From a virus: DNA of 20,473 nt. The stretch spans positions 1 to 20,473 of the IMG/VR virus record IMGVR_UViG_3300043430_000039. One strand, 5' to 3'. The translations under genes and the position numbers were made by a program. Shown one piece after another: positions 1,327-20,473 of the stretch (position 1 is its first letter; each line of letters opens with the position of its first letter). A model generated the notes under the pieces. That model was not told the DNA's origin. It did no database searches and saw only the letters and a list, made by a program, of their open reading frames with translations.

Positions 1327-2511
1327 TTATTCTACCGTAGTTATTACCCGGTTAATACCCCGCACCGGCGCCAGCACGGACGCTGTCGCGTCCCCGGCGA
1401 GCCCGCCAACACGGTCTGATTGGAGGGGGGTAACGCTGCCGTCTGGCGTACCGAGGTAGTATCCGTCATGCGCTAGCCATGCGGCGTATAATCCGCCCCG
1501 CCGGGCGAAATCTTCTTCCAGCAGGCCCGCCGGCACAGCCAGTCCGGACCACGGCACCGGGGGCGGGGCCGCCATTTTTGTATGCGCCGCGTTCGGCCCG
1601 TCACCGGCGAGGTAGTGCAGGTGCTCGCGCGTGCCGACATACAGTCCGGACTCTACAGCCTGCAGCAGTGTGATTTCGCTCTCGTACAGCACAAACCCGT
1701 GCTGCGGCGCGGTGAGTCCGTAATGTAGCGGCTCCGAGAAATACAAGACATTACCGCGCGCGACATACATCCGGCCGTTATACCCAGCAAGCAAGCGGCC
1801 CCCCGGCATCTGCGTCAGGTACTGGTTTGTCGCCGCTTTACCCTCGGCCTGCGCGCCGATAAGTATCGGCGGTACCAGTCCGGCCGGGATGTCGAGCGCG
1901 TGGTACAGGCGGTCGCCATCTGGCTGTGTCATATACACGCGCACGTCGCATCCGGCGGGTGCGGGCGGGATATGTAGCAGCTCCACACCTGCCGTGGTGT
2001 AGGTAAACGTTATCGCCGATACACCCGACTCTTCAGTCGCCGATACGAACGACAGCGCCAGACCGTAGCGCCCCGGCATCAGGCCGCCTACCCCGGCCGT
2101 ACGGATAGCCGGGGACGCCGGGGTAGGTAGTCCGGCGCGCACAGTACTATGCCCGTCAGCGGATACGCAGCCGAGCATGTCGCCGTCGGTAAACCAGACG
2201 CGCCCCGCATGCCGGGTGTACGCCACAGGGTTGATCGGGTGCAGACCCGTGGCGATCAATGTAGTTGCTAGTGGGTAGTCTACGCGATAGAGCCCATCCC
2301 CTTGCGCGCACAAGGCAAAAGTATCAAACCCCTGCAAACACCGGGCGCCGGGTAGCAGGCCTGCCGGGGTGAACCCTTCACGCACGTAGCCGATACCGTT
2401 CGCAGCGACGTCGACGTTGGTGATGTCACGGGCTCGATCGGCCGGTATATTAGTCGGGTCGGTTTTGGTGTCCATACCGCCGGCAAATTGCATACGATTA
2501 GTGGGTAACAT
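1327..2511 (-). CDS. Phage virion protein with propeller-like composition, 394 aa
   Basis: The ATG at 2511 follows a GGAG at suitable spacing, and the gene overlaps the end of the giant gene before it by 14 bases, which suggests coupled translation. The N-terminus carries a FAGGMDTKTDP motif (about residues 9-19) followed by N-D and G-x-x-R-E-G-F, a pattern I associate with a phage structural family found next to large repeat proteins. The body has repeated short beta-type segments ending in GLYRVDYP, GRVWFTDGD, GRMYVARGN and GLYVGTREH, as expected of propeller blades. No signal peptide or membrane segment is seen. A tail or head-completion part is plausible; a beta-propeller adhesin is the alternative. 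The structural class is fairly sure and the exact role is unknown. Confidence 0.85.
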   Translation of the reverse strand: MLPTNRMQFAGGMDTKTDPTNIPADRARDITNVDVAANGIGYVREGFTPAGLLPGARCLQGFDTFALCAQGDGLYRVDYPLATTLIATGLHPINPVAYTRHAGRVWFTDGDMLGCVSADGHSTVRAGLPTPASPAIRTAGVGGLMPGRYGLALSFVSATEESGVSAITFTYTTAGVELLHIPPAPAGCDVRVYMTQPDGDRLYHALDIPAGLVPPILIGAQAEGKAATNQYLTQMPGGRLLAGYNGRMYVARGNVLYFSEPLHYGLTAPQHGFVLYESEITLLQAVESGLYVGTREHLHYLAGDGPNAAHTKMAAPPPVPWSGLAVPAGLLEEDFARRGGLYAAWLAHDGYYLGTPDGSVTPLQSDRVGGLAGDATASVLAPVRGINRVITTVE

Positions 2512-5500
2512 TGGATGCTCCGAAAGTTGAAAAGTCAGTCTCTCCGGCGACGATGACTACGCGGTCGCGGCAGCCGTAGATATTGGTTACCGCCGGCGGC
2601 TCATACCCGCTGCAATCCACACCTGCAGGGCGTAGCGGCCGGCCGATACGCGCGCCGGCCGGCGGTAGCGGGGCGATGCCGGTAGCCCCCACTGACCGGT
2701 CGATACGGTAGCGCCCCCAGCGGGTCATATCCTGTGCGTATGGCGTAATCATGCCATACACCGCGCGGCTCGGCGCCCCAACGAGCGCGGCATCGAACGA
2801 GTCCGGACTGACCGTGAACCGGGCCTCTACGCGGGGGCGTGTCAGCGCCGGCGCCGGCGCAGCCACCGAACGCGCGACAACTGTCCGTACACGGTAGCTC
2901 ACCTGCGCGATGACGACAGGTAGCGCCTGTATACCGGCGACCGCGTATCGGCTGATGCCGTGCCGTACATACAGGCGGTGCTTCATTGCTGATATATCCT
3001 CACGGCACACCAGCGCCATATCTTCGCCTTCTACTGATAGTGTGCGATGGCGGTAGGCGATCTGCGTGATCGTGATCTCCGGCGGCACAATGCCCATTGG
3101 GTTGAGCCGGAACGGCGGGTGTGCCCATACTAACGGTACGTGCAGGGCGTCATCCCCGCTGGGGTAAACCCGGCGTATCAGGTTCTCGACACGCGAATAC
3201 CCGAACCCGGTGGCGCTGAAGCCAGTAGGGATCAGGTACGGGCTCCACACAGGCGGCGGGGTGTAATAGCCGGTGACGGGCTCCCCGAATAACGCGGTAT
3301 CGAAATTATATTGCGGCGCGTCGGGCATGTAGTCATCGGTACTCCTGCCCCAGTACGGGGCGATATACTGCGGCCCGCGAACCTCGACCATACCATACGC
3401 CCTGCGGTTGGAGTCCCAGCCGGTTGCGAATATCTTGTTTGTCGATACCGTCGGTATGCCGGGGTTGGGTGGGGGTATGGGTATGCTGCGGACTGCTCTG
3501 TGTTGGTTACTGACGTCGGGCTCCCCGAATACCGGTTTAACCCCCTCCTTCCCCGGCTCCGCAAGGTGTGCATCTACGAGCCATTCAGCGCGGACGTCAC
3601 CGAACGGACCCAGTACCGCCGGGAACATGAACACCCTCGAAGGTTCAAACACCAAGGGTCTTTCCACAGTGTTGATGAGTATGGTGCGGTGTTTGAAGCT
3701 GATCCACGGGTCGCCGGCCTTCGCCGAATCTCCAAGCGTGGAATCGATCAATATACCGTTCGATGTGACGGTGGGGCTGCCGAACTTCGACATATCCTCA
3801 CCGACCATGAGCGCCGAACGCCTATTGATAGTTACCGGGGGTAGGTCTGTTACCCCTATACCGCCAGCGATACATCGCTGCGTGTTGGGTAGCTGCGGCT
3901 CGTCGTGCTTCACCTCCAGCAGGCGCGAGAAGCTGTCGGTCGCGGCGCCGCCGGGGCGGATCGTGCGGTTACGCAGTGTGGGGTTCGGAGCGCCTACTCC
4001 CGCCGCCGGAATACCCACTCCACCGATATCTACCACCCGCACGCGGAAGCTCACCCAAGGGCCGTAATACCCCGGTTGCAGCGCGAACCCGATCACCCAC
4101 GCTTGCGGGTTGAAGTTCTTGACCGTCGGTGCCCCGTATTTGTCTTGCGGGTACCCGTGCGCCCCGGCGATATTCCGCTTGCTCTCGACGAACAGATTAC
4201 CGTAGCGATCTTGCCCGAACGGTACCGGGTACACGCGCTGTATGTAGAACCCGATATACGGCGGTGCAATGTATGGCGTGTCGTAACGTGCGACGACGAT
4301 CGTCCGCACACGGTCTGCTACGAAGACTCGGGAGGGCTCGACGGGGGGCGGCGCCGACACGGGGTATATAAGCCGCTCGTTGCGCCATACCGTCGGAAGC
4401 CCGGCATACGGGCGCGCGATACCCCCTTTATCCGGTAATACCTGCCGCAGGTTCCACACGGCTGTCCAGCGACCGACTGCACCGAGAACGTCGCCGTCAG
4501 GCACCACCGTCCGGATGCGCGGAGCGGCCATCACCTCCCCGAACAGTGCGGAGTCTGTACCTGTCGGCAGCAGTGCCCGCCCTGCATTCAGGATGGTGTA
4601 GTAGTGGCTGACGAAGGACGTATCGTAGCCGGCAGGGCGTACTGTCTTGTTCCGCTGGGTTACGCCCGGTACGCCGAATACGTCCGGCATGAGCGGCGAC
4701 CATGTAGTGCAGTATGTCCGCCAGTTCCAGACCGAGCCCTCACCCGCCAGCGTAGCCTTGAACCCTTCGACTGCGCGTCGCCGATGCCGATGTGAAACAT
4801 CGGCGTACCCGAAAGATGACAATACGCCAAACGTCAGCGGCCATACGAGCTGCTCATTGCGCCAGACGTCTGTGTCACCGAGTCGGGACTGGTCTCCGCA
4901 CCCTGCAACGATAGGCTGCAGGCGGTATGAGGTGCGTAGTACGCCGAAGGCCGCGCCGGGGGTGTCGAAGAACACGCCCTCTGGGTATACCGTGCGCCGC
5001 TGCAGCATGACATCAGTCGTGCCGAACTTGTCTGTGCTGAAATGCGGGATGTATACCCGCCGATACTTGTACGCCGCCTGCGTGTTGCCGAACACCGGTG
5101 AGTCGTGTCCGGCTACCGGTACGTAGCGACGCGCGAGTTCTACCGTCACCTCCGATATCTGTGTCAGGGCAGTACCGTCCGGGTACACCGGGCGCACCCG
5201 ATGCGCGGTGTGCGGGTCTCCGAACACTGGTGACTGGAACCCGGCGGGCGCCGCGCCCAGATGCAGGTTGAACACACTGATGTCGCCGAACACCGTCATC
5301 AGGCTGCCGTACACCTGCTTCATACGGTTGAAGCGGTCGGCGTCAGTCACCCCGAAAGTCAGGGACTCCCAGCCGCTCGGCCGGAACACGAGGGCTGCGT
5401 TGCGCACACTGACAGGCGGCGCTATCGCATGATCCGCGCCGAGTGGCTTCGCCTGCTTGCGTGCGTTGCGTACCGTCGGGTGGAACGAGTTGAAGCTGGC

Positions 5501-7567
5501 ATGATCGGTCGTGTCCGGTACGACGATCTTGTTGAAGTTACGTATGTCCGGATCGCCGACGTGCCATACGTCGAACGCAGCGACAGAGAGCGGGTAAGTA
5601 AACTGTCTCAGGTCAGTGACAAATACCTGCTGTACTTCTGCGGCATCGAACCCGTCAGGGCGCAGCTTGTTATCCCGTAGCGCGATAGTGCCAAAGCTGG
5701 TCCCGTATAACGTGGTCGGGAACACCGCTCGGTTTTGTAGCTGGACGTAGGGCTCACCGACGATGCGGTGGCTGCCTGTTGCCGGGTATACGTAGCGCTG
5801 CTGTAGCCGCGTATTTGCGACCCCGAAAGCTGGTGACGGAGGGGCTATGCCGGCAGGGTTGGCCGCGTAAGTGATGACTGAGCTGACGTTAACCGATGCT
5901 TTGACTATCCACTCACCGAGCGGCTGCCATCCCGGAGGGATGTACCCCGCGCCCCCCGGCTGGATGCGCTGATCGAACGTCATCGACAGGTACGCCTCGG
6001 TGTCCGACATCAGCCGGGTATTACCGAGTCTCTGGTGGAGCGCCCAGTCTGGAGCGCTTAGTGCCGGCGGGCGGGTTATGTCAGGCGGCCACGGTGTAGC
6101 CGGAAACGCCATGTACTGCTCGGGCAAGGCGTATGGTGGCGGCCATAATTGTGTACTGGGTACGACGCCCCCTTGGGCGATCGGCAGATACCCCGCTACT
6201 GTGTGCCGGTCTGCGCTGCCATACAGCAGGACCGTCCCGTGGGAGGTGTCGATCGCCGCGAGGTTCGCGCTGCACTGTGGGCGTTGCTCCGGTACGGAGC
6301 AGGCGGGGGTACTGCCGGACGGCTCGAAAGCAGCGACCGATACTTCGTTCAGCGGGGTGAGCGAGAGGTCGTAGGCGTAGGCGGTGGCTGTACCGTCTAC
6401 CACCCATACCACATGCTCGGTTACCGCCAAGACGTGCGTATTCGGCGTGACGCTAACCGTAGCGACTGGTAGCCCGGTATCAAGATCGAGGCGCTTCAGT
6501 TCGTCGGTCGCAATATCCAGCAAAAACAGGGCCGTGCTGTTTGCTGCGAGGTGTGTGGAGAATGATGGCGCCGATACCAGCGGCGAGGCGTTTACACCGA
6601 CGCCTCCGTACAGCATGTCGGTCTGCCCGTGCGTAAAGTAGACCCGGTTGCCTACCGCCGCAAAAGCGTAAATATCGCCCTGCCCCAGATTACTGTGGGC
6701 TACATAAGTGCCGTCGCTGGTCAGCTGCAGCAGGCCGATATACATCGAATTGTCTGCGCGCCGGGCATAGCAGGGCATGAGCATATCCCCGGCGACATTG
6801 GTGAAGCCGAATTCAGGGGAAGGCTTGATAATGTCCCCGGAGACCGGATCGGATACGACGCGCTGAACCTCGTCAGTCTGCCAAGTCTGCCTGTCGAAAC
6901 GTGTCAGGAAGTCTGATGTCGGGCTAACGGGTGAGAACGAGGTGGCTACGAAGACATAGCTGTCGGAGTGGAACACCGTGCGGGGGCCGCCCGACACAGA
7001 AGGCACGCCTCTGTTGAAGTAGTCCAGATACCGCAAGGCGTGCCGCCGGCGATCTTCCGGCTCGACGCGGGTAGTGCCGAAACCCGTCGCTACGAACCCG
7101 TTTGTACGCAGGTACTCGTGCTGGTTATGTACGGCGGTAGCCCCGAATAGGCTGGAGTCTTTCCCCGATGCGCGGAAGAAGCTATGAAAATTCCATACTT
7201 TACCCGGCGTGCCCATGTCCAAGTGGTTCGCACCACTTACCGGTACCGTGCGCCGCGTGTTCACAGCCTCTGGCGTACCGTACTCAGCAGTGTTAGTACC
7301 GACCGTAGTGACGCCCTGAGCGCTGTTGAATACAGTCGCTGTGCCATGCGCCGACGCGTCGAAACCGTTAAGGGTAGTGACGCGGGATTTGTTGCGTATC
7401 GCCGGGGGCGCTATGGCACCATCAGTGAACGCATCCGGGTAGACGGCTTGTGCGTCGCCCTCCGGTGGCGGTATGAGGTTCGCTTTAATCAGGCGCGCGT
7501 CAGGCGGCGTGTATTCGCTACGTAATACCGTCTTGAGAAGCCTGCTGTCTGGCGGGGTGTAAGACAT
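2498..7567 (-). CDS. Giant FG-repeat virion protein, 1689 aa, with propeller-like insertion
   Basis: One continuous frame of 1689 residues begins at the ATG at 7567, one base after the preceding stop. Residues 1-35 hold two copies of a YTPPDxRLxK motif about 16 residues apart. From about 45 to 170, and again from about 575 to the end, there are dozens of diverged short repeats of the form FG-x-P/T-x-V-x-N-x-x-R-x-V-x-P-x-G. Their spacing ranges from about 22 to 45 residues, as expected of stacked beta-hairpins. Between them, residues about 190-460 differ: hydrophobic strands separated by turns such as FLLDIATDELKRLDLDTG look like beta-propeller blades. No signal peptide, membrane segment or enzyme motif is evident. 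By size and place, between the receptor-binding candidate and the 394-residue protein, it is probably a long tail fibre, tail spike scaffold or other virion appendage. This assignment is inference. Confidence 0.88.
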   Translation of the reverse strand: MSYTPPDSRLLKTVLRSEYTPPDARLIKANLIPPPEGDAQAVYPDAFTDGAIAPPAIRNKSRVTTLNGFDASAHGTATVFNSAQGVTTVGTNTAEYGTPEAVNTRRTVPVSGANHLDMGTPGKVWNFHSFFRASGKDSSLFGATAVHNQHEYLRTNGFVATGFGTTRVEPEDRRRHALRYLDYFNRGVPSVSGGPRTVFHSDSYVFVATSFSPVSPTSDFLTRFDRQTWQTDEVQRVVSDPVSGDIIKPSPEFGFTNVAGDMLMPCYARRADNSMYIGLLQLTSDGTYVAHSNLGQGDIYAFAAVGNRVYFTHGQTDMLYGGVGVNASPLVSAPSFSTHLAANSTALFLLDIATDELKRLDLDTGLPVATVSVTPNTHVLAVTEHVVWVVDGTATAYAYDLSLTPLNEVSVAAFEPSGSTPACSVPEQRPQCSANLAAIDTSHGTVLLYGSADRHTVAGYLPIAQGGVVPSTQLWPPPYALPEQYMAFPATPWPPDITRPPALSAPDWALHQRLGNTRLMSDTEAYLSMTFDQRIQPGGAGYIPPGWQPLGEWIVKASVNVSSVITYAANPAGIAPPSPAFGVANTRLQQRYVYPATGSHRIVGEPYVQLQNRAVFPTTLYGTSFGTIALRDNKLRPDGFDAAEVQQVFVTDLRQFTYPLSVAAFDVWHVGDPDIRNFNKIVVPDTTDHASFNSFHPTVRNARKQAKPLGADHAIAPPVSVRNAALVFRPSGWESLTFGVTDADRFNRMKQVYGSLMTVFGDISVFNLHLGAAPAGFQSPVFGDPHTAHRVRPVYPDGTALTQISEVTVELARRYVPVAGHDSPVFGNTQAAYKYRRVYIPHFSTDKFGTTDVMLQRRTVYPEGVFFDTPGAAFGVLRTSYRLQPIVAGCGDQSRLGDTDVWRNEQLVWPLTFGVLSSFGYADVSHRHRRRAVEGFKATLAGEGSVWNWRTYCTTWSPLMPDVFGVPGVTQRNKTVRPAGYDTSFVSHYYTILNAGRALLPTGTDSALFGEVMAAPRIRTVVPDGDVLGAVGRWTAVWNLRQVLPDKGGIARPYAGLPTVWRNERLIYPVSAPPPVEPSRVFVADRVRTIVVARYDTPYIAPPYIGFYIQRVYPVPFGQDRYGNLFVESKRNIAGAHGYPQDKYGAPTVKNFNPQAWVIGFALQPGYYGPWVSFRVRVVDIGGVGIPAAGVGAPNPTLRNRTIRPGGAATDSFSRLLEVKHDEPQLPNTQRCIAGGIGVTDLPPVTINRRSALMVGEDMSKFGSPTVTSNGILIDSTLGDSAKAGDPWISFKHRTILINTVERPLVFEPSRVFMFPAVLGPFGDVRAEWLVDAHLAEPGKEGVKPVFGEPDVSNQHRAVRSIPIPPPNPGIPTVSTNKIFATGWDSNRRAYGMVEVRGPQYIAPYWGRSTDDYMPDAPQYNFDTALFGEPVTGYYTPPPVWSPYLIPTGFSATGFGYSRVENLIRRVYPSGDDALHVPLVWAHPPFRLNPMGIVPPEITITQIAYRHRTLSVEGEDMALVCREDISAMKHRLYVRHGISRYAVAGIQALPVVIAQVSYRVRTVVARSVAAPAPALTRPRVEARFTVSPDSFDAALVGAPSRAVYGMITPYAQDMTRWGRYRIDRSVGATGIAPLPPAGARIGRPLRPAGVDCSGYEPPAVTNIYGCRDRVVIVAGETDFSTFGASNVTH

Positions 7568-9770: not shown

Positions 9771-10181
9771 TTACACTTTAAATATTTTGTTGGGACCGTT
9801 GTCCCACGTCACGATAATATCGCCGCCGTTCGGGGTGATCGGTAGGCCGGTACCCGTATCGATGAAGGCGATCAACGGGCTAGAGGCTTCATCGGCACCC
9901 TCTTTATAGATAACGATGGCCTCGATGGATGGGCCGCTGACGGAGGGGAATGTCACGTCGCGCCCGTTAGCGGCCCCGCCCGACGTCTCTTTGTCGACGA
10001 GCGTAACGGGCGCCGAGGAGATGCGCGCCGCCGGGCCGATATCTGCCAGATTGGCGTGGGTGCCGAAGCTAGGGGTGTACGAACCGGTATCGACCAGAAT
10101 CACCTTGATGGTGTCGGTCATCCAGTTGATCTCGCCTTTCAGAAAACGTTCGCGTGCGCTGTCATAAAGCGTATTAGCCAT
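9771..10181 (-). CDS. Small conserved phage virion protein, 136 aa
   Basis: The ATG at 10181 follows GAGGAG with a 6-base spacer. The protein starts MANTLYDSARERFLKGEINW and continues with TDTIKVILVDTGSYTPSF. It ends in a beta-rich part, TPNGGDIIVTWDNGPNKIF. This matches, from memory, a well-spread family of small phage structural proteins with a K-G-x-I/H then D-T-x-K-V-x-L pattern. The 139-residue protein at 15529-15948 has the same general layout, so the two are probably distant relatives. There is no signal peptide or membrane segment. It is the only gene in its transcription unit, enclosed by terminators at 10260-10296 and 9671-9708, which fits a separately controlled and perhaps abundant particle component. 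The exact role (decoration, tail or fibre part) is unknown. Confidence 0.88.
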   Translation of the reverse strand: MANTLYDSARERFLKGEINWMTDTIKVILVDTGSYTPSFGTHANLADIGPAARISSAPVTLVDKETSGGAANGRDVTFPSVSGPSIEAIVIYKEGADEASSPLIAFIDTGTGLPITPNGGDIIVTWDNGPNKIFKV

Positions 10182-13432: not shown

Positions 13433-14227
13433 TCAGGCTCCGATCAGTTTTGTGGCACCGTACTGCTGCGTACTGCTGTTGCCGCCGAAGCTCAGAAACT
13501 CAATACAGGCGTCGTTATGGACTTGAAACAAGCCACCATACAACGCCGCCATTGCTTCGCCCCATTGCGCGCCGCCGTGCATCATGTTTCCATGCGCCCA
13601 GCCGAGCGGCTTGAACAGTGTTACCCCGACGTTGCCGGCTACAGCTGTACTCCCGGCAAACGTCACACCTTCCACGCTACGCACGCCTGTATCACCGTCT
13701 TGCAGAGGTAGGATGTATCGGCGGCCTACTGGCGCGCTCGCTGGCCAGACAACAACCTTCGTCACGCGACCGGCAGTCCCGTCTTGATTGGTGTAACGTG
13801 CGGTGACGGTTGTGGCGGTGCCGCCTGTCGCTGTGTAGACGTCCAGCGCCAGCATGACGCCGATGCCATCTGTGTATCGGGGTAGTGCCGCCGTTGGCAG
13901 GTTAGTCGTCTGCTCTGTGGTGATATTGGCGACCAGCCCGCCGCTATGTACCAGCCGGTCGGTAATCATGGGCAGGCCGAGAAACATCTGAGCGTTAGTC
14001 TGGTGTCCGAGCGTTGTCACTTGCAGAAACTGGTCGCCGGCATCCGGTATTTCCGGAATCTGCGCCCCTGTGGTGGCTTTCGTAAGCGCAACGCTGGCGG
14101 TAGGCGCTACGCCACTATTAGCCGTCCACGTACCGTATTGCGCATACCTGCCGGACAGGTTGGGAAAACGGCCCGGAGTTGTATCTCGCAGCTTCTGCAA
14201 GTATTGGTCAAACGAGGTGAGCGCCAT
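13433..14227 (-). CDS. Virion protein, second member of tandem paralogous pair, 264 aa
   Basis: The ATG at 14227 follows GAGG at 7 bases and lies two bases after the previous stop. The protein starts MALTSFDQYLQKLRDTTPGR. The second half shares with its upstream neighbour the series YTNQDGTAGR-x-TK, then LPLQDGDTGV-x-SV-x-x-VT, then AGN-x-x-V-x-L-x-KPL. The two genes are therefore duplicates with diverged N-termini. I know this YTNQDG pattern from uncharacterised structural proteins of several tailed phages. There is no signal peptide, membrane segment or catalytic motif. Position after the head and adaptor genes and before the fibre-like repeat gene suggests a tail or capsid-surface part. 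Two related copies could form alternating positions in one ring or two different layers. Confidence 0.85.
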   Translation of the reverse strand: MALTSFDQYLQKLRDTTPGRFPNLSGRYAQYGTWTANSGVAPTASVALTKATTGAQIPEIPDAGDQFLQVTTLGHQTNAQMFLGLPMITDRLVHSGGLVANITTEQTTNLPTAALPRYTDGIGVMLALDVYTATGGTATTVTARYTNQDGTAGRVTKVVVWPASAPVGRRYILPLQDGDTGVRSVEGVTFAGSTAVAGNVGVTLFKPLGWAHGNMMHGGAQWGEAMAALYGGLFQVHNDACIEFLSFGGNSSTQQYGATKLIGA

Positions 14228-14229
14228 GA

Positions 14230-15078
14230 TCAGGCCTCAACCATGTGCAGCGTCATCATGATCTGCGGGATAGCTGTTCCCGGCCCGATGAACATCGAGC
14301 TCAGGCACGCCCCTGTCAGCACCTCCGGCAAGGCCGGGGCGTTGGTAACGGCGTCACGAATGAACGTGCCGCCTGCGTAGGACGTGCCAACTTGAAGCAA
14401 CGGCTTGATTAGCAGCACCGCGAAGTTGCCCGCCGTGCCTGTGGTAGCGGTAACGGTCACGCTCTGCACGCTCAACACCCCAGTATCGCCATCGGCCAGC
14501 GGTAAAAACAGAATGCGCTGTAGCTCGCGGTTGCCCGTACCGCCGAAAGCAGTCAGCTTTGTGGTTCGCCCCGCCGTGCCGTCTTGATTGGTGTAACTGG
14601 CGGATATCGTGGTTGCGGTTGTACCGACAGCAACGCCAATCTCAACGGCAATCTGTACGCCGACGGCAGTCTGCGCCGTGTTGTAGCGGGTTGAGCTAAT
14701 GTTGCAAGTCTGCGCCGTAATGACTGTGCCTGACCGCCCACCAATTTGCGCCAGCCGGTCATAGATCAGGTAGTTCGCTGCAATAGACGAATAACCCTCA
14801 ATACCCAGCAGCCACAACTGCCGGCCTCCGGTCGGGTCGTTCTGCCCGAAGGCACCGGCAACATTACGCGCCGGGTTCGTAGCCGCAGCAGGTAGCGCCC
14901 CGGAGCCGCCCAGCGTGGCGTTATATTGCCACAGGCTTGTCCAGCGGTTCACCACGGGCGCCTGCGCTGCTGCCGCACCGACGCGGCTGTCGATCCATGT
15001 TGTGATGTGTTGCGGGTTGCCGTTGTTTCCGCCAGTGACGCGGTTCACCAGTGCGGAGAGGTCTGTCAGCGCTGCCAT
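14230..15078 (-). CDS. Virion protein, first member of tandem paralogous pair, 282 aa
   Basis: The ATG at 15078 overlaps the preceding stop (TAATG); no strong ribosome site is present, so translation is probably coupled. It starts MAALTDLSALVNRVTGG, then has an Ala/Asn/Gly-rich middle. The C-terminal half contains SYTNQDGTAGR-x-TKL, LPLADGDTGV-x-SVQSVTV and AGNFAVLLIKPL, matching the downstream 264-residue protein in the same order. The two also share an exact 17-base DNA match (14581-14597 and 13781-13797) over the YTNQD codons. It is a structural protein of unknown role, most likely beta-rich in its second half. A tail, decoration or adhesin function is inferred only from neighbours. Confidence 0.85.
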   Translation of the reverse strand: MAALTDLSALVNRVTGGNNGNPQHITTWIDSRVGAAAAQAPVVNRWTSLWQYNATLGGSGALPAAATNPARNVAGAFGQNDPTGGRQLWLLGIEGYSSIAANYLIYDRLAQIGGRSGTVITAQTCNISSTRYNTAQTAVGVQIAVEIGVAVGTTATTISASYTNQDGTAGRTTKLTAFGGTGNRELQRILFLPLADGDTGVLSVQSVTVTATTGTAGNFAVLLIKPLLQVGTSYAGGTFIRDAVTNAPALPEVLTGACLSSMFIGPGTAIPQIMMTLHMVEA

Positions 15079-15528: not shown

Positions 15529-15948
15529 TTAACCGATACGGACCAGACCGTTTGCTGCGTCTGGCGTCGGTAGCTGTGCGGTGAAGGTACCATTAGTGCT
15601 GGTAATATCCGAACCAAAGTTGAACGCAGCAACCGCTTTATTACCTTTGGAGCTGTTGTAGATCAGCGCGCCGCGCGCGGTGATCGATGCCGTCGGCCAG
15701 CTCGGATCAGTGGTGAAGTCGAGGACGGCCGTATCGCCTGACAGGGCGATGCTCAGGCCGGCCAGCGTTGCACCGCCAGCGGTGTACCCAGTACCGGCAA
15801 CCTCGTTTGTTACGCTGTATACAGTGGTAGTTTTGTCCAGCGTCGCAGCGCTGGTGTAAAGCGCAATCTTATAGGTGTCTGCACTGGCATGGACGCCCTG
15901 CATGATTTCCTGTTTGTAGCTGTTGCAGACTGCAGTGGTGATGGCCAT
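15529..15948 (-). CDS. Small conserved phage virion protein, 139 aa
   Basis: The ATG at 15948 follows AAGGA at 6 bases. The protein starts MAITTAVCNSYKQEIMQGVH and continues with ADTYKIALYTSAATLDKTT. A middle VTNEVAGTGYTAGGATLAG motif and a final beta-rich stretch follow. The S-x-K-Q-E-x-x-x-G-V-H then D-T-x-K-I-A-L-Y pattern belongs, from memory, to a widespread family of small phage structural proteins. The 136-residue protein at 9771-10181 has a related layout. No signal peptide or membrane segment is present. It sits in the connector and tail part of the operon, after the 116-residue protein, so a virion role is likely, but its location in the particle is unknown. Confidence 0.85.
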   Translation of the reverse strand: MAITTAVCNSYKQEIMQGVHASADTYKIALYTSAATLDKTTTVYSVTNEVAGTGYTAGGATLAGLSIALSGDTAVLDFTTDPSWPTASITARGALIYNSSKGNKAVAAFNFGSDITSTNGTFTAQLPTPDAANGLVRIG

Positions 15949-17825: not shown

Positions 17826-18938
17826 TTACTGTGCGCAGAAGGCGTTGATCACGCCGAAATCTTCGACGGCGCCGTTCTCGTAGATCGAGCTGAACTTGGG
17901 TTTCAGGAAACCCAGAATCTTGCTGACCGAGATACCCTGCTGGTTCTCGTAGTCGAAGCCCTTTTCGATCCATTCCGGCGCGCCGATGTCAGCCATGCCC
18001 AGTGCTTGCGCACCGCAGAAGGCGATCGAGCAACCGTCAACGGTACCGCCAGCACCCCACTTGTTACCCGAGGTGGCGTTGGCAGTGTTGTACACATGGC
18101 GGAACTCGTGCAGGTACAGACCGTCGATCTTCACGCTGGAGCCGGTAAACAGGACGTTGCCGTCGCCGCGCTGCTGTGCGTGACGTACGTTCTGCATATA
18201 GTTGCTATCCAGCTTCAGCTTGGCCATGGCCTGCGGAGTCAGGAATACGTGGAAAGTTTCCTCGCCGCCGGCTTCTTTGATCCCGCGAATGTAATGGTCC
18301 TTAGCGTAGGCTTTCAGCTGCACCAGCATCTCCCAGCTCGGGGTATCCGCCGCAGCGACCGCACTGGTTGCGCCGCCTACGGTGAACACTTTGGCGGCGC
18401 CGTCCCAGCGCAGGCGGCGGTTGGCCGTCGGAGCGCTTACGTCCTGCGCGAAGTCCAGATACTGCAGGTCTGAGCCGACACGGTTCGCGCCTCGGTTGGT
18501 CTTGGCGTAGCTCACGCCGGCGAGCGACAGGAAGGCCAGCTGATCCATACGGTCGGCGAGCCAGTACGACAGCACGTCTTTGGAGTTACCACGGAATTCA
18601 ACGATCGACTTCTGATCAGCCACGCGTCCTTCGTGACGGTTCGCATGACGCAGCTGGTCGATGCGGATCACTTGGTCGAACGACTGCATAGCCTCTTCGT
18701 TGCCTTCCAGCATACGGTCGCCGGCAACGCCGTCGCCAGTCAGATCGGCCAGCAAGGTGATGACCGCGCGGGCGCCTTTCTCGGATTTCTTCAGCTCGGT
18801 AATGTGCTGAATCATCGAGTTCGGGCCTTTGCCGAGGAACTTGTTGATAAAGGACTGGTTACGGGCTTGTTTCCACAAGTCCATGCTCCAGATTGTTTTT
18901 TGTTCTTGGGTCAATGCCCCAAAATTCGTCAGAGCCAT
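17826..18938 (-). CDS. Major capsid protein, N4-gp56 family, 370 aa
   Basis: The start at 18938 (MALTNFGALTQEQKTIWSMD) is set by GGAGG 5 bases upstream; an ORF reading further upstream adds 17 residues from the leader and is rejected. Typical family blocks are W-K-Q-A-R-N-Q-S-F-I-N-K-F-L-G (22-36), LADLTGDGVAGDRMLEGNEE (63-82), I-R-I-D-Q-L-R-H-A (91-99) and V-L-S-Y-W-L-A-D-R-M-D-Q (122-133). The C-terminal half contains H-V-F-L-T-P-Q-A-M-A and G-M-A-D-I-G-A-P-E-W. This is the Phage_capsid_3 (N4-gp56) pattern, an HK97-fold shell protein that assembles the icosahedral head. The length is normal for the family. The gene stands at the head of its own unit after a terminator and a long leader, consistent with high late expression. 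Confidence 0.95.
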   Translation of the reverse strand: MALTNFGALTQEQKTIWSMDLWKQARNQSFINKFLGKGPNSMIQHITELKKSEKGARAVITLLADLTGDGVAGDRMLEGNEEAMQSFDQVIRIDQLRHANRHEGRVADQKSIVEFRGNSKDVLSYWLADRMDQLAFLSLAGVSYAKTNRGANRVGSDLQYLDFAQDVSAPTANRRLRWDGAAKVFTVGGATSAVAAADTPSWEMLVQLKAYAKDHYIRGIKEAGGEETFHVFLTPQAMAKLKLDSNYMQNVRHAQQRGDGNVLFTGSSVKIDGLYLHEFRHVYNTANATSGNKWGAGGTVDGCSIAFCGAQALGMADIGAPEWIEKGFDYENQQGISVSKILGFLKPKFSSIYENGAVEDFGVINAFCAQ

Positions 18939-18948: not shown

Positions 18949-19023
18949 AATAATTGAATGAAAGAGAAGGCGTCTGCATGTCGCTGCAACTGGCGAGGGG
19001 TCAGCCCTTACGGGGTCGAGTCG

Positions 19024-19133: not shown

Positions 19134-19439
19134 TCAGGGGGTGATGATACTGGTTTTTTCGGCGGCGGCAATAGATTGTTGTGCGATCTTAGCGTCGTGG
19201 GCCGCACAACTCACGCGGTAGCCTTCCAGACTCCACAGCTGGCGCAGAGCGTCCTTATACGCCAGCTCGCGCCCGACAGCTGCATCGAACTCTGCCGGGT
19301 CGATGCAGGCGCTGGTGCCGGTGACTACGAAGTCGCTGATGGTCTTGAGTAGACACAGCGTTGTCGTCGTACCGTCGACGTGGAAGAACTCCGCGTCGAT
19401 AACGCGAGCCCTGATGTCGTCTTCAGTCAGTTTCATCAT
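19134..19439 (-). CDS. Phage Gp49/Sf6 gene 66 family protein, 101 aa
   Basis: The first ATG at 19439 overlaps the previous stop (ATGA), and GGAG lies about 5 bases upstream; the next codon is also ATG. The family pattern is clear: E-D-D-I (6-9), an F-F-H-V-D-G-T-T-T-T-L-C segment (18-29), F-V-V-T-G-T-S-A-C-I-D-P-x-x-F-D (37-52), then A-V-G-R-E-L-A-Y-K-D-A (54-64) and L-W-S-L-E-G-Y-R (68-75). This is Phage_gp49_66 (PF13876), named after N4 gp49 and Sf6 gene 66. Its function is not established. It is small, soluble and not obviously structural. It follows the DUF2829 gene and is closed off by a terminator, so the two probably act in the same accessory unit. An anti-defence or host-takeover role is inference. 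Confidence 0.88.
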   Translation of the reverse strand: MMKLTEDDIRARVIDAEFFHVDGTTTTLCLLKTISDFVVTGTSACIDPAEFDAAVGRELAYKDALRQLWSLEGYRVSCAAHDAKIAQQSIAAAEKTSIITP

Positions 19440-19858
19440 ACAAGCTCCCAGTCTGTTGCCAGTATGTCTGTCTGGCTAGCCAGCCACGGTACGCGCGCGC
19501 CCGGCGTGTTGAGTGCGTTATCAGGGTAATTCAGGTACAGGTAGGGGAGGGTCATCTTGCTGTGCGCGTCGGGGTGCTGCATCTCGACCCACATGCCTCT
19601 GCCGTTCCAGCCGGTACGCCGTACCTTGCCACCTTTCTTCAGGATGTCCAGCGCGATCCCGAAGCCGAAACCGTCAATGTTCTGGGCAGGTAGCGCCAAC
19701 GTATTGCCCTGCACCATGAAGTCCAGTGTCTCGCCGTCGCGACCGTCCGGGTGGATGTAGAAGCCGACCCGGCCGCTACCGAAACTGCGGGCGCGTACCG
19801 AGAAATCGGTCACGTCCCGGTCCATATTCTCGTGAAAGTATTGCTCCAGTGTTTTCAT
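19436..19858 (-). CDS. DUF2829 (Tad2-like) protein with N-terminal extension, 140 aa
   Basis: The ATG at 19858 shares a base with the previous stop (TGATG). Residues about 64-140 carry the DUF2829 pattern: F-G-x-A-L-D-I-L-K-K-G-G-K-V-R-R-T-G-W-N-G-R-G-M-W-V (66-91), then L-P-Y-L-Y-L (104-109) and V-P-W-L-A-S-Q-T-D-I-L-A-T-D-W-E (123-138). DUF2829 (PF11195) includes Tad2, which neutralises the Thoeris defence by sequestering its cyclic ADP-ribose-type signal (glycocyclic ADPR). Residues 1-63 form an extra domain with FYIHPDGRDGETLDF (33-47) that Tad2 proteins do not usually need. Many DUF2829 proteins are untested, so anti-defence activity here is inferred. The gene sits between scaffold-like and capsid genes, an unusual place for a defence inhibitor. 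Confidence 0.88.
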   Translation of the reverse strand: MKTLEQYFHENMDRDVTDFSVRARSFGSGRVGFYIHPDGRDGETLDFMVQGNTLALPAQNIDGFGFGIALDILKKGGKVRRTGWNGRGMWVEMQHPDAHSKMTLPYLYLNYPDNALNTPGARVPWLASQTDILATDWELV

Positions 19859-20473
19859 CAGACGTCGTCCCCACGTAATTTGGCGAGGGTCTTCTCGTCC
19901 AGCTTGGCAAACTCGTCCTGCGACATCTTCATCACGTCGGCCGGGTTCAGTATGCCGCCGCCGGCTTTGTCGCTATCCATACCCACGCGGGCGGTGCTCG
20001 GGGGCTGCCGGCCCTCGGCGTCGAGGTTGCGCTTACGAGCCTCCGTAGCGCGGTCGGTAGTTACCTTGTCCTTATCGACGCGCGGAGTCACCTCGGTGGC
20101 GAGGCGTTCTTTACCCGTATTCGGGTCCCCCATTACCAGTTTGACGGCCTCCTGCATCGCAGCGCTCGGCGTGTCGCCGGTGGCCATCAGACCTTTCCGA
20201 ATCTTCAGTACCTTGGCGACCTTGCCCTCGTCATAATCCTCATGGCGCGGATTCAGTTCGGGGTAGGCTTCCTCGATACGGTCGATCACCATACTCTCAC
20301 GCACCTGCTCAACGGCCTGCGTGGTGGCCTGCTGCGCTTTCAGGTCTGCCTTGAAATCGGATATAGCGTCAGACAGCTCACGGATGGCGGCCATCGTCTG
20401 CGAGGCTTTCTCACTCTCACCGTCAGTGATCTGCTTGGTGAGCTGTTTCTCCAGCTCGCCGAGACGTCCTTGG
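19858..20473 (-). CDS. Coiled-coil, scaffold-like protein, 5' end cut by window edge
   Basis: The frame is open from the window edge through an internal ATG at 20394, giving 204 visible residues. The extra part upstream of that ATG reads GRLGELEKQLTKQITDGE, a heptad-like helix continuous with AIRELSDAISDFKADLKAQQ. The ATG at 20394 is therefore probably not the start. The protein is charged and helical throughout, has a Lys/Arg/Asp-rich middle (about 110-150 of the visible part) and ends in a helical KMSQDEFAKLDEKTLAKLRG segment. Such low-complexity helical proteins shortly before a capsid gene are usually scaffolding proteins that shape the procapsid. Identification is by composition and position only. 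Its stop overlaps the DUF2829 start. Confidence 0.75.
   Translation of the reverse strand, partial: QGRLGELEKQLTKQITDGESEKASQTMAAIRELSDAISDFKADLKAQQATTQAVEQVRESMVIDRIEEAYPELNPRHEDYDEGKVAKVLKIRKGLMATGDTPSAAMQEAVKLVMGDPNTGKERLATEVTPRVDKDKVTTDRATEARKRNLDAEGRQPPSTARVGMDSDKAGGGILNPADVMKMSQDEFAKLDEKTLAKLRGDDV

Follow-up and report, generated by a model that had tools for sequence, protein, structure and literature searches.

A predicted double counter-immunity cassette of Tad2- and Acb4-family genes in the scaffold-capsid slot of a phage head operon

Two overlapping genes lying between the scaffold-like and capsid genes of a phage very probably form a double counter-immunity cassette, in which a Tad2-family protein (P0002) directed against Thoeris and an Acb4-family protein (P0001) directed against CBASS are predicted to act as signal sponges. 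The window, that is, the whole stretch of DNA analysed here (20,473 bp), is an entire IMG/VR virus contig and probably a fragment. Our reading is based on family membership, fold, gene overlaps, a terminator, the enrichment of such genes in the corresponding slot of relatives, their recurrence and their fusions, while signal binding and immune evasion have been shown by others for members of these families. For P0002 and P0001 themselves, we infer signal binding, the identity of the ligands and the timing of production.

Gene order at the end of the head operon

On the minus strand, a scaffold-like ORF (19858..20473, the 3' part, with the window end inside the ORF) is followed by P0002 (19436..19858, 140 aa), P0001 (19134..19439, 101 aa), a terminator and the major capsid protein gene (17826..18938). 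The original prediction had placed two overlapping genes between scaffold-like and capsid genes, and this arrangement was recovered: P0002 and P0001 overlap by 4 bp, and the ATG of P0002 overlaps the TGA of the scaffold-like ORF by 1 bp at 19858 (TGATG). Since the cassette overlaps the scaffold gene, it is probably co-transcribed and translationally coupled with that gene; the overlap supports a single transcript, and the pair may be produced late, together with the head proteins. In a second contig (L068), both ORFs are 100% identical to those of the window and the pair lies directly 3' of a scaffold-like ORF of 351 aa. Nearly all relatives have a homolog of this ORF ahead of the capsid gene; its assignment to a spectrin or other coiled-coil family was rejected, as the matches fell below cut-offs.

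The capsid ORF matches PF13252 (E 2.3e-39) and phrog_334 (E 1.5e-82). We prefer the ATG at 18938 as its start over a longer TTG ORF starting at 18989, because alignments with homologs begin at residue ~15-18 of that longer ORF. A Rho-independent terminator-like hairpin on the minus strand (19098-19079; GGCCACGCATTTGCGTGGCC followed by a T-rich tail), with a GC-rich 8-bp stem, separates the cassette from the capsid gene. The strong terminator proposed for this position is supported by the predicted stability of the 72-nt region (-24.8 kcal/mol, z-score -6.0), which was equalled by 0 of 200 shuffled sequences. Across the window, no Rfam families were found.

Family membership and predicted ligands

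P0002 consists of a Tad2-like domain (residues 64-140) and an extra N-terminal domain (residues 1-62). The Tad2-like identity proposed for the protein is borne out by the match of residues 66-140 to PF11195 (Tad2-like; E 1.6e-20, 73.9 bits, curated cut-off 25) and by sequence matches in the PDB (8sme and 9eib); a search of NCBIfam with P0002 and P0001 gave no match. The AlphaFold2 model, built from alignments of the locus proteins, has a pLDDT of 77 overall, with values mostly >90 in the Tad2 part (residues 61-140) and of ~55 in the N-terminal domain. When the model was compared with the PDB using Foldseek, the best 24 matches were all Tad2-family chains (E 1e-5 to 3e-4, TM(target) 0.56-0.83), including SPO1 Tad2, ModTad2 (Myroides), HgmTad2/AcrIIA7 and SptTad2, and at E<=0.001 chains of this family were the only PDB matches. 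Comparison of 36 diverse phage homologs gives a set of invariant residues, all of which P0002 also keeps (R81, G83, W84, N85, G86, P124, W125, S128, Q129, D131, D136 and W137). The gcADPR pocket of Tad2 is formed by the b1-b2 loop, b4, the b4-a3 loop and a3, pocket elements that we took from a review (PMC12043709), and most of the invariant residues of P0002 lie in these elements of the model. The structural comparison suggested earlier has thus returned a predicted Tad2 fold with conserved pocket-forming loops. P0002 shares its domain, its fold and the motifs GWNG and W-x2-SQTD-x4-DW with known Tad2 proteins (PF11195; SPO1 gp34.65, ModTad2, HgmTad2/AcrIIA7 and SptTad2), and its Tad2 domain is a short version, as in SPO1 and Myroides. 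It differs from them in its additional 62-residue N-terminal domain and in the position of its gene, which sits in a head operon beside an Acb4 gene.

The N-terminal domain (window 19673-19858) was absent from the original prediction and is almost unique: the one relative that we found, gp82 of Pseudomonas phage SS2019XI (HMM E 4e-9), is a stand-alone protein of 58 aa, the gene of which is flanked by excisionase and integrase genes.

The second gene had been assigned to an uncharacterised family, Gp49/Sf6 gene 66. The family assignment holds, as residues 4-76 of P0001 match PF13876 (N4 Gp49/Sf6 gene 66 family; E 1.2e-16, 61.3 bits, curated cut-off 27), but the family is no longer uncharacterised: PF13876 is the Acb4 family of tetrameric sponges for 3'3'-cGAMP, which act against CBASS (PMC11722364). 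The suggestion that Gp49 might be a second inhibitor therefore fits the literature. The AlphaFold2 model of P0001, from the same kind of alignments, has a pLDDT of 91, and its best 13 Foldseek matches in the PDB are all chains of the SPO1 Acb4 structure 9e4w (E 8e-5 to 5e-4, TM(target) 0.66-0.79, rmsd 1.1-2.3), with which it shares the a-b-b-b-long helix fold. No other structure was returned at E<=0.001. At the sequence level, P0001 and SPO1 Acb4 are far apart (~25% identity, phmmer E 0.069). This distant alignment indicates that the pocket positions F48 and F62 are kept (F37 and F51 in P0001) and that I66 is replaced by a similar residue (V55), whereas several base- or phosphate-contacting residues are changed (K36 to T25, E49 to V38, Y57 to I46, N63 to D52 and T70 to L59); V56 also differs, and K81 lies beyond the alignment. 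P0001 keeps all family-invariant residues. A first survey of its relatives returned 5 loci only, because P0001 is divergent, whereas a typical Acb4 query returned many more. SPO1, in which both families were found, encodes Tad2 as well as Acb4 (PMC11722364); P0001 differs from SPO1 Acb4 in its polar pocket residues and in that its gene overlaps the Tad2 gene in a capsid-adjacent slot.

The most likely ligand of P0002 is a Thoeris signal, namely a TIR-made ADP-ribose compound of the cADPR type or His-ADPR. Cyclic-dinucleotide binding by some Tad2 proteins has been attributed to a long b2-b3 insertion (PMC12043709); since the b2-b3 segment of P0002 is short (~11 residues) and this insertion is missing, we favour an ADPR-type ligand. 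For P0001, a cyclic dinucleotide of CBASS is the most likely ligand. Its family assignment is safe, while its exact ligand may differ from that of SPO1 Acb4, and both its distance from SPO1 Acb4 and its changed pocket residues count against the cassette reading. It is conceivable, though rather unlikely, that both proteins are sponges with another division of labour, the Tad2 domain binding cyclic dinucleotides in the manner of HgmTad2/AcrIIA7, or the Acb4-like protein binding another nucleotide signal. Some Tad2 proteins do bind cyclic dinucleotides (PMC12043709), AcrIIA7 is a Tad2 homolog, and P0001 retains the Acb4 pocket only in part. However, the short b2-b3 segment of P0002 does not suit such a division, and all Acb4 homologs tested by their discoverers (8/8) bound 3'3'-cGAMP (PMC11722364).

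A variable slot between scaffold and capsid genes

Capsid relatives were collected in viral contigs, in bacterial genomes and among isolates, and clustering with a threshold of 95% nucleotide identity left 97 clusters. Scaffold and capsid genes are separated by as little as 97 bp or as much as 3.35 kb, and the gap contains variable cargo; in the nearest isolate, Pseudomonas phage KPP25, the slot is empty (182 bp). At least one of Tad2, Acb4 and the RyR domain occupies the slot in 32 of the 97 clusters (Tad2 in 8, Acb4 in 20 and RyR in 16), and these domains are ~180-fold denser there than in the surroundings: 71.0 kb of slot sequence hold 44 of them, and 860 kb of flanking sequence hold 3. A Pfam search over the whole of 35 longer records placed 16 of 24 matches inside slots (~38 kb of 1.70 Mb) and 8 elsewhere, some of the latter in genomes whose slot is empty (AP1, KPP25, L094 and L095). 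In 30 of the 36 slots that hold any recognised family, the first such gene begins <=30 bp from the scaffold stop, and in 21 of these 30 at or overlapping it. Terminator-like hairpins 5' of the capsid gene are more frequent in slots with Tad2, Acb4 or RyR (14/32) than in the others (9/65; p 0.0016), and their sequences vary from case to case. On the capsid tree, the 32 carriers require at least 21 changes of the cargo trait (shuffle mean 27; 1/200 as low), so there is some inheritance and much exchange. In its variable cargo, domain enrichment and frequent exchange, the slot resembles a moron site.

The slot also accepts cargo other than counter-defence genes. An 899-aa ORF resembling a tail-spike or depolymerase-type protein is found in four slots (L076, L077, L078 and L144), and fibre-like proteins in two (L121 and L122). 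In the more distant Lastavirus and Lessievirus (L218, L219 and L220), the scaffold-capsid gap contains a gene for a CsrA-like regulator.

The position of the pair raises the question of whether its products serve the head itself. Accessory head-assembly or virion proteins that share sponge folds by chance would suit genes located between scaffold and capsid and overlapping the scaffold gene. Yet Tad2, Acb4 and RyR are missing from the slot in 65 of the 97 relatives, unrelated cargo is swapped in on a nearly unchanged head operon, carriage is patchy on the capsid tree, and in Acidovorax phage AP1 the same families adjoin lysis or integrase genes, while in KPP25 they lie elsewhere, all of which leaves a structural role highly improbable. 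Somewhat less remote, but still improbable, is a regulatory role for the Acb4-like protein, which would bind RNA or nucleotides and control the head operon instead of acting as a sponge: Acb4 has the a-b-b-b-a topology of a dsRBD (PMC11722364), and the CsrA-like gene sits at the same place, but the best structural match of P0001 is Acb4 itself, and Acb4 recurs beside or fused with Tad2 and RyR, both of which are described as acting against nucleotide signals in phages. That slot cargo comes and goes might also be expected of decaying passenger genes without function; such decay deserves hardly any weight, as the ORFs are intact, keep all family-invariant residues, are 100% identical in the second contig and are tightly packed with overlaps.

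Anti-defence islands, such as anti-CRISPR clusters (PMC7648647) and the leading regions of plasmids (PMC11541004), similarly collect counter-defence genes at a set place and are useful for guilt by association. The slot differs in that it is a single narrow site within a head operon, rich in antagonists of nucleotide immune signals and with fusions across families.

Recurrent neighbours, fusions and proposed mode of action

In 2026, RyR-domain proteins of phages (RyDEP) were found to bind Thoeris signals or to degrade them (PMC13232231). The RyR copies in the slots match PF02026 (E 1.7e-10), and the RyDEP residues H75, W78, H100 and D117 (H-x2-W-x21-H-x16-D) recur at exact spacing in 16/16 slot copies and in 90/94 unique domains, a conservation that is partly built in, as the domain set was gathered by similarity. 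In RyDEP, these are ligand-binding or catalytic residues. Tad2, Acb4 and RyR are thus three families of nucleotide-immune-signal antagonists. The slot of relatives holds RyR beside or fused to Acb4, whereas the window itself lacks RyR.

In a wider network sample (533 loci, 340 protein clusters at 80%), which is biased by the queries used, PF11195 and PF13876 are adjacent in many phages and also occur fused, so the predicted association of the two families is found. Around Acb4 (n=77 loci), Tad2 occurs in 7, 1 and 1 loci and RyR in 7, 0 and 0 at <200 bp, 0.2-1 kb and 1-3 kb, respectively, and around RyR (n=67) the corresponding counts for Acb4 are 12, 1 and 0; partner domains are <200 bp apart or hardly ever nearby, a fall-off with distance that is internal to this query-biased collection. 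The suggestion that the pair may recur together holds in this sample, but the two genes are not always paired. In the slot, co-occurrence of Tad2 and Acb4 is above expectation over all slots (Fisher p 0.009) but not clearly so among occupied slots (p 0.10), and we therefore rejected the pair as a linked unit there; the unit is the slot.

Fusions extend the association to further domains. The two-domain clusters comprise SWSP+Tad2 (49), VGR+Acb4 (5), VGR+Tad2 (4), Acb4+RyR (3), SWSP+Acb4 (3), Acb4+crAss001_48 (3) and Acb4+Tad2 (1), in which SWSP is our working name for a ~75-residue domain (GTKxVxA...SWSPxxxFExAYR) and VGR that for phrog_2293-like proteins. Single cases combine VGR+Acb4+RyR (340 aa), SWSP+Tad2+Acb4 (330 aa) and SWSP+Tad2+Acb4+crAss001_48 (428 aa), and in one protein (L275:2863-3540) a whole RyR domain lies within the hypervariable Acb4 loop. 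Further natural fusion proteins are encoded at L212:5071-5742, L226:2162-3184 and L474:2971-4257. PHROG models with matching combinations exist (phrog_872, 9467, 18865, 3934 and 4435), and in the isolate AP1 an SWSP-Tad2 gene adjoins Acb4 between the lysis genes and the integrase. An apparent Acb4-SWSP-Tad2 fusion in L003 was set aside, because in L004 these genes form two separate ORFs, which makes a frame error likely. The literature on Acb4 (PMC11722364) and RyDEP, as far as covered, describes no fusion and no capsid-adjacent site, and the RyDEP paper (PMC13232231) does not mention the slot or fusions; in the part of the literature found, each family is known separately, and Tad2, Acb4 and RyR are not described as a set.

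The recurrent fusion and adjacency of SWSP, VGR and crAss001_48 with Tad2, Acb4 and RyR point to these domains as further counter-immunity candidates. A broader reading, which we put forward tentatively and hold to be somewhat less probable than not, is that phages draw on a modular kit of Tad2, Acb4 and RyR together with SWSP, VGR (phrog_2293), crAss001_48 (PF21825) and the N-terminal domain of P0002, combined as neighbours or multi-domain proteins to block several alarms at once, and that one podovirus lineage keeps this kit in a head-operon slot, where it would be made with the capsid protein, a possible trigger of some of these alarms. If so, the unstudied domains would be new signal-binding or signal-degrading families. 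A fixed site at which antagonists of Thoeris and CBASS signals accumulate, with fusions of up to four domains per protein, lets new anti-immunity families be traced directly through genomic position and fusion. The simultaneous blocking of several alarm systems becomes testable too, as does the reason why such genes would be tied to capsid production.

For the cassette in the window, we propose that P0002 and P0001 would be made from the scaffold transcript, the Tad2-family protein capturing the Thoeris signal and the Acb4-family protein the CBASS signal. Signals would thereby be kept below the level at which effectors fire, so that the host suicide effector stays off, and the terminator would close the cassette ahead of the capsid gene. 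Related phages fill the slot with other sets of Tad2, Acb4 and RyR (RyDEP), as single, neighbouring or fused genes. Described antagonists of this type are active in the early to middle stages of infection (PMC11722364, PMC13232231), an awkward fit with a late head operon that counts against the cassette reading. According to a review (PMC12043709), the major head protein of a phage is recognised by a Thoeris sensor, so that making antagonists together with the capsid could be sensible, although this is speculation.

Several minor features accompany these loci. The hypervariable Acb4 loop differs greatly in length among other Acb4 proteins too. VGR (KPTVGRxVWY...EWMPYQxGQAK), for which Pfam gave no match, occurs beside or fused with Acb4, Tad2 and RyR, in slots (L082, L091, L099, L122 and L131) and also in L226 and L227; SWSP (in the longer form GTKxVxAxPM...SWSPxxxFExAYR) and crAss001_48 are often fused to Tad2 and Acb4 (L109:3608-4048, L119:5429-5854 and L474). 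Elsewhere in the window, two tandem paralogous ORFs of structural type (13433-14227 and 14230-15078) have a YTNQDGTAGR.TK region in common, two phrog_644 paralogs occupy separate loci (9771-10181 and 15529-15948), and a 1689-aa protein (2498-7567; phrog_11272) contains many degenerate repeats with stretches resembling FG...V..R.RTV.P.G.
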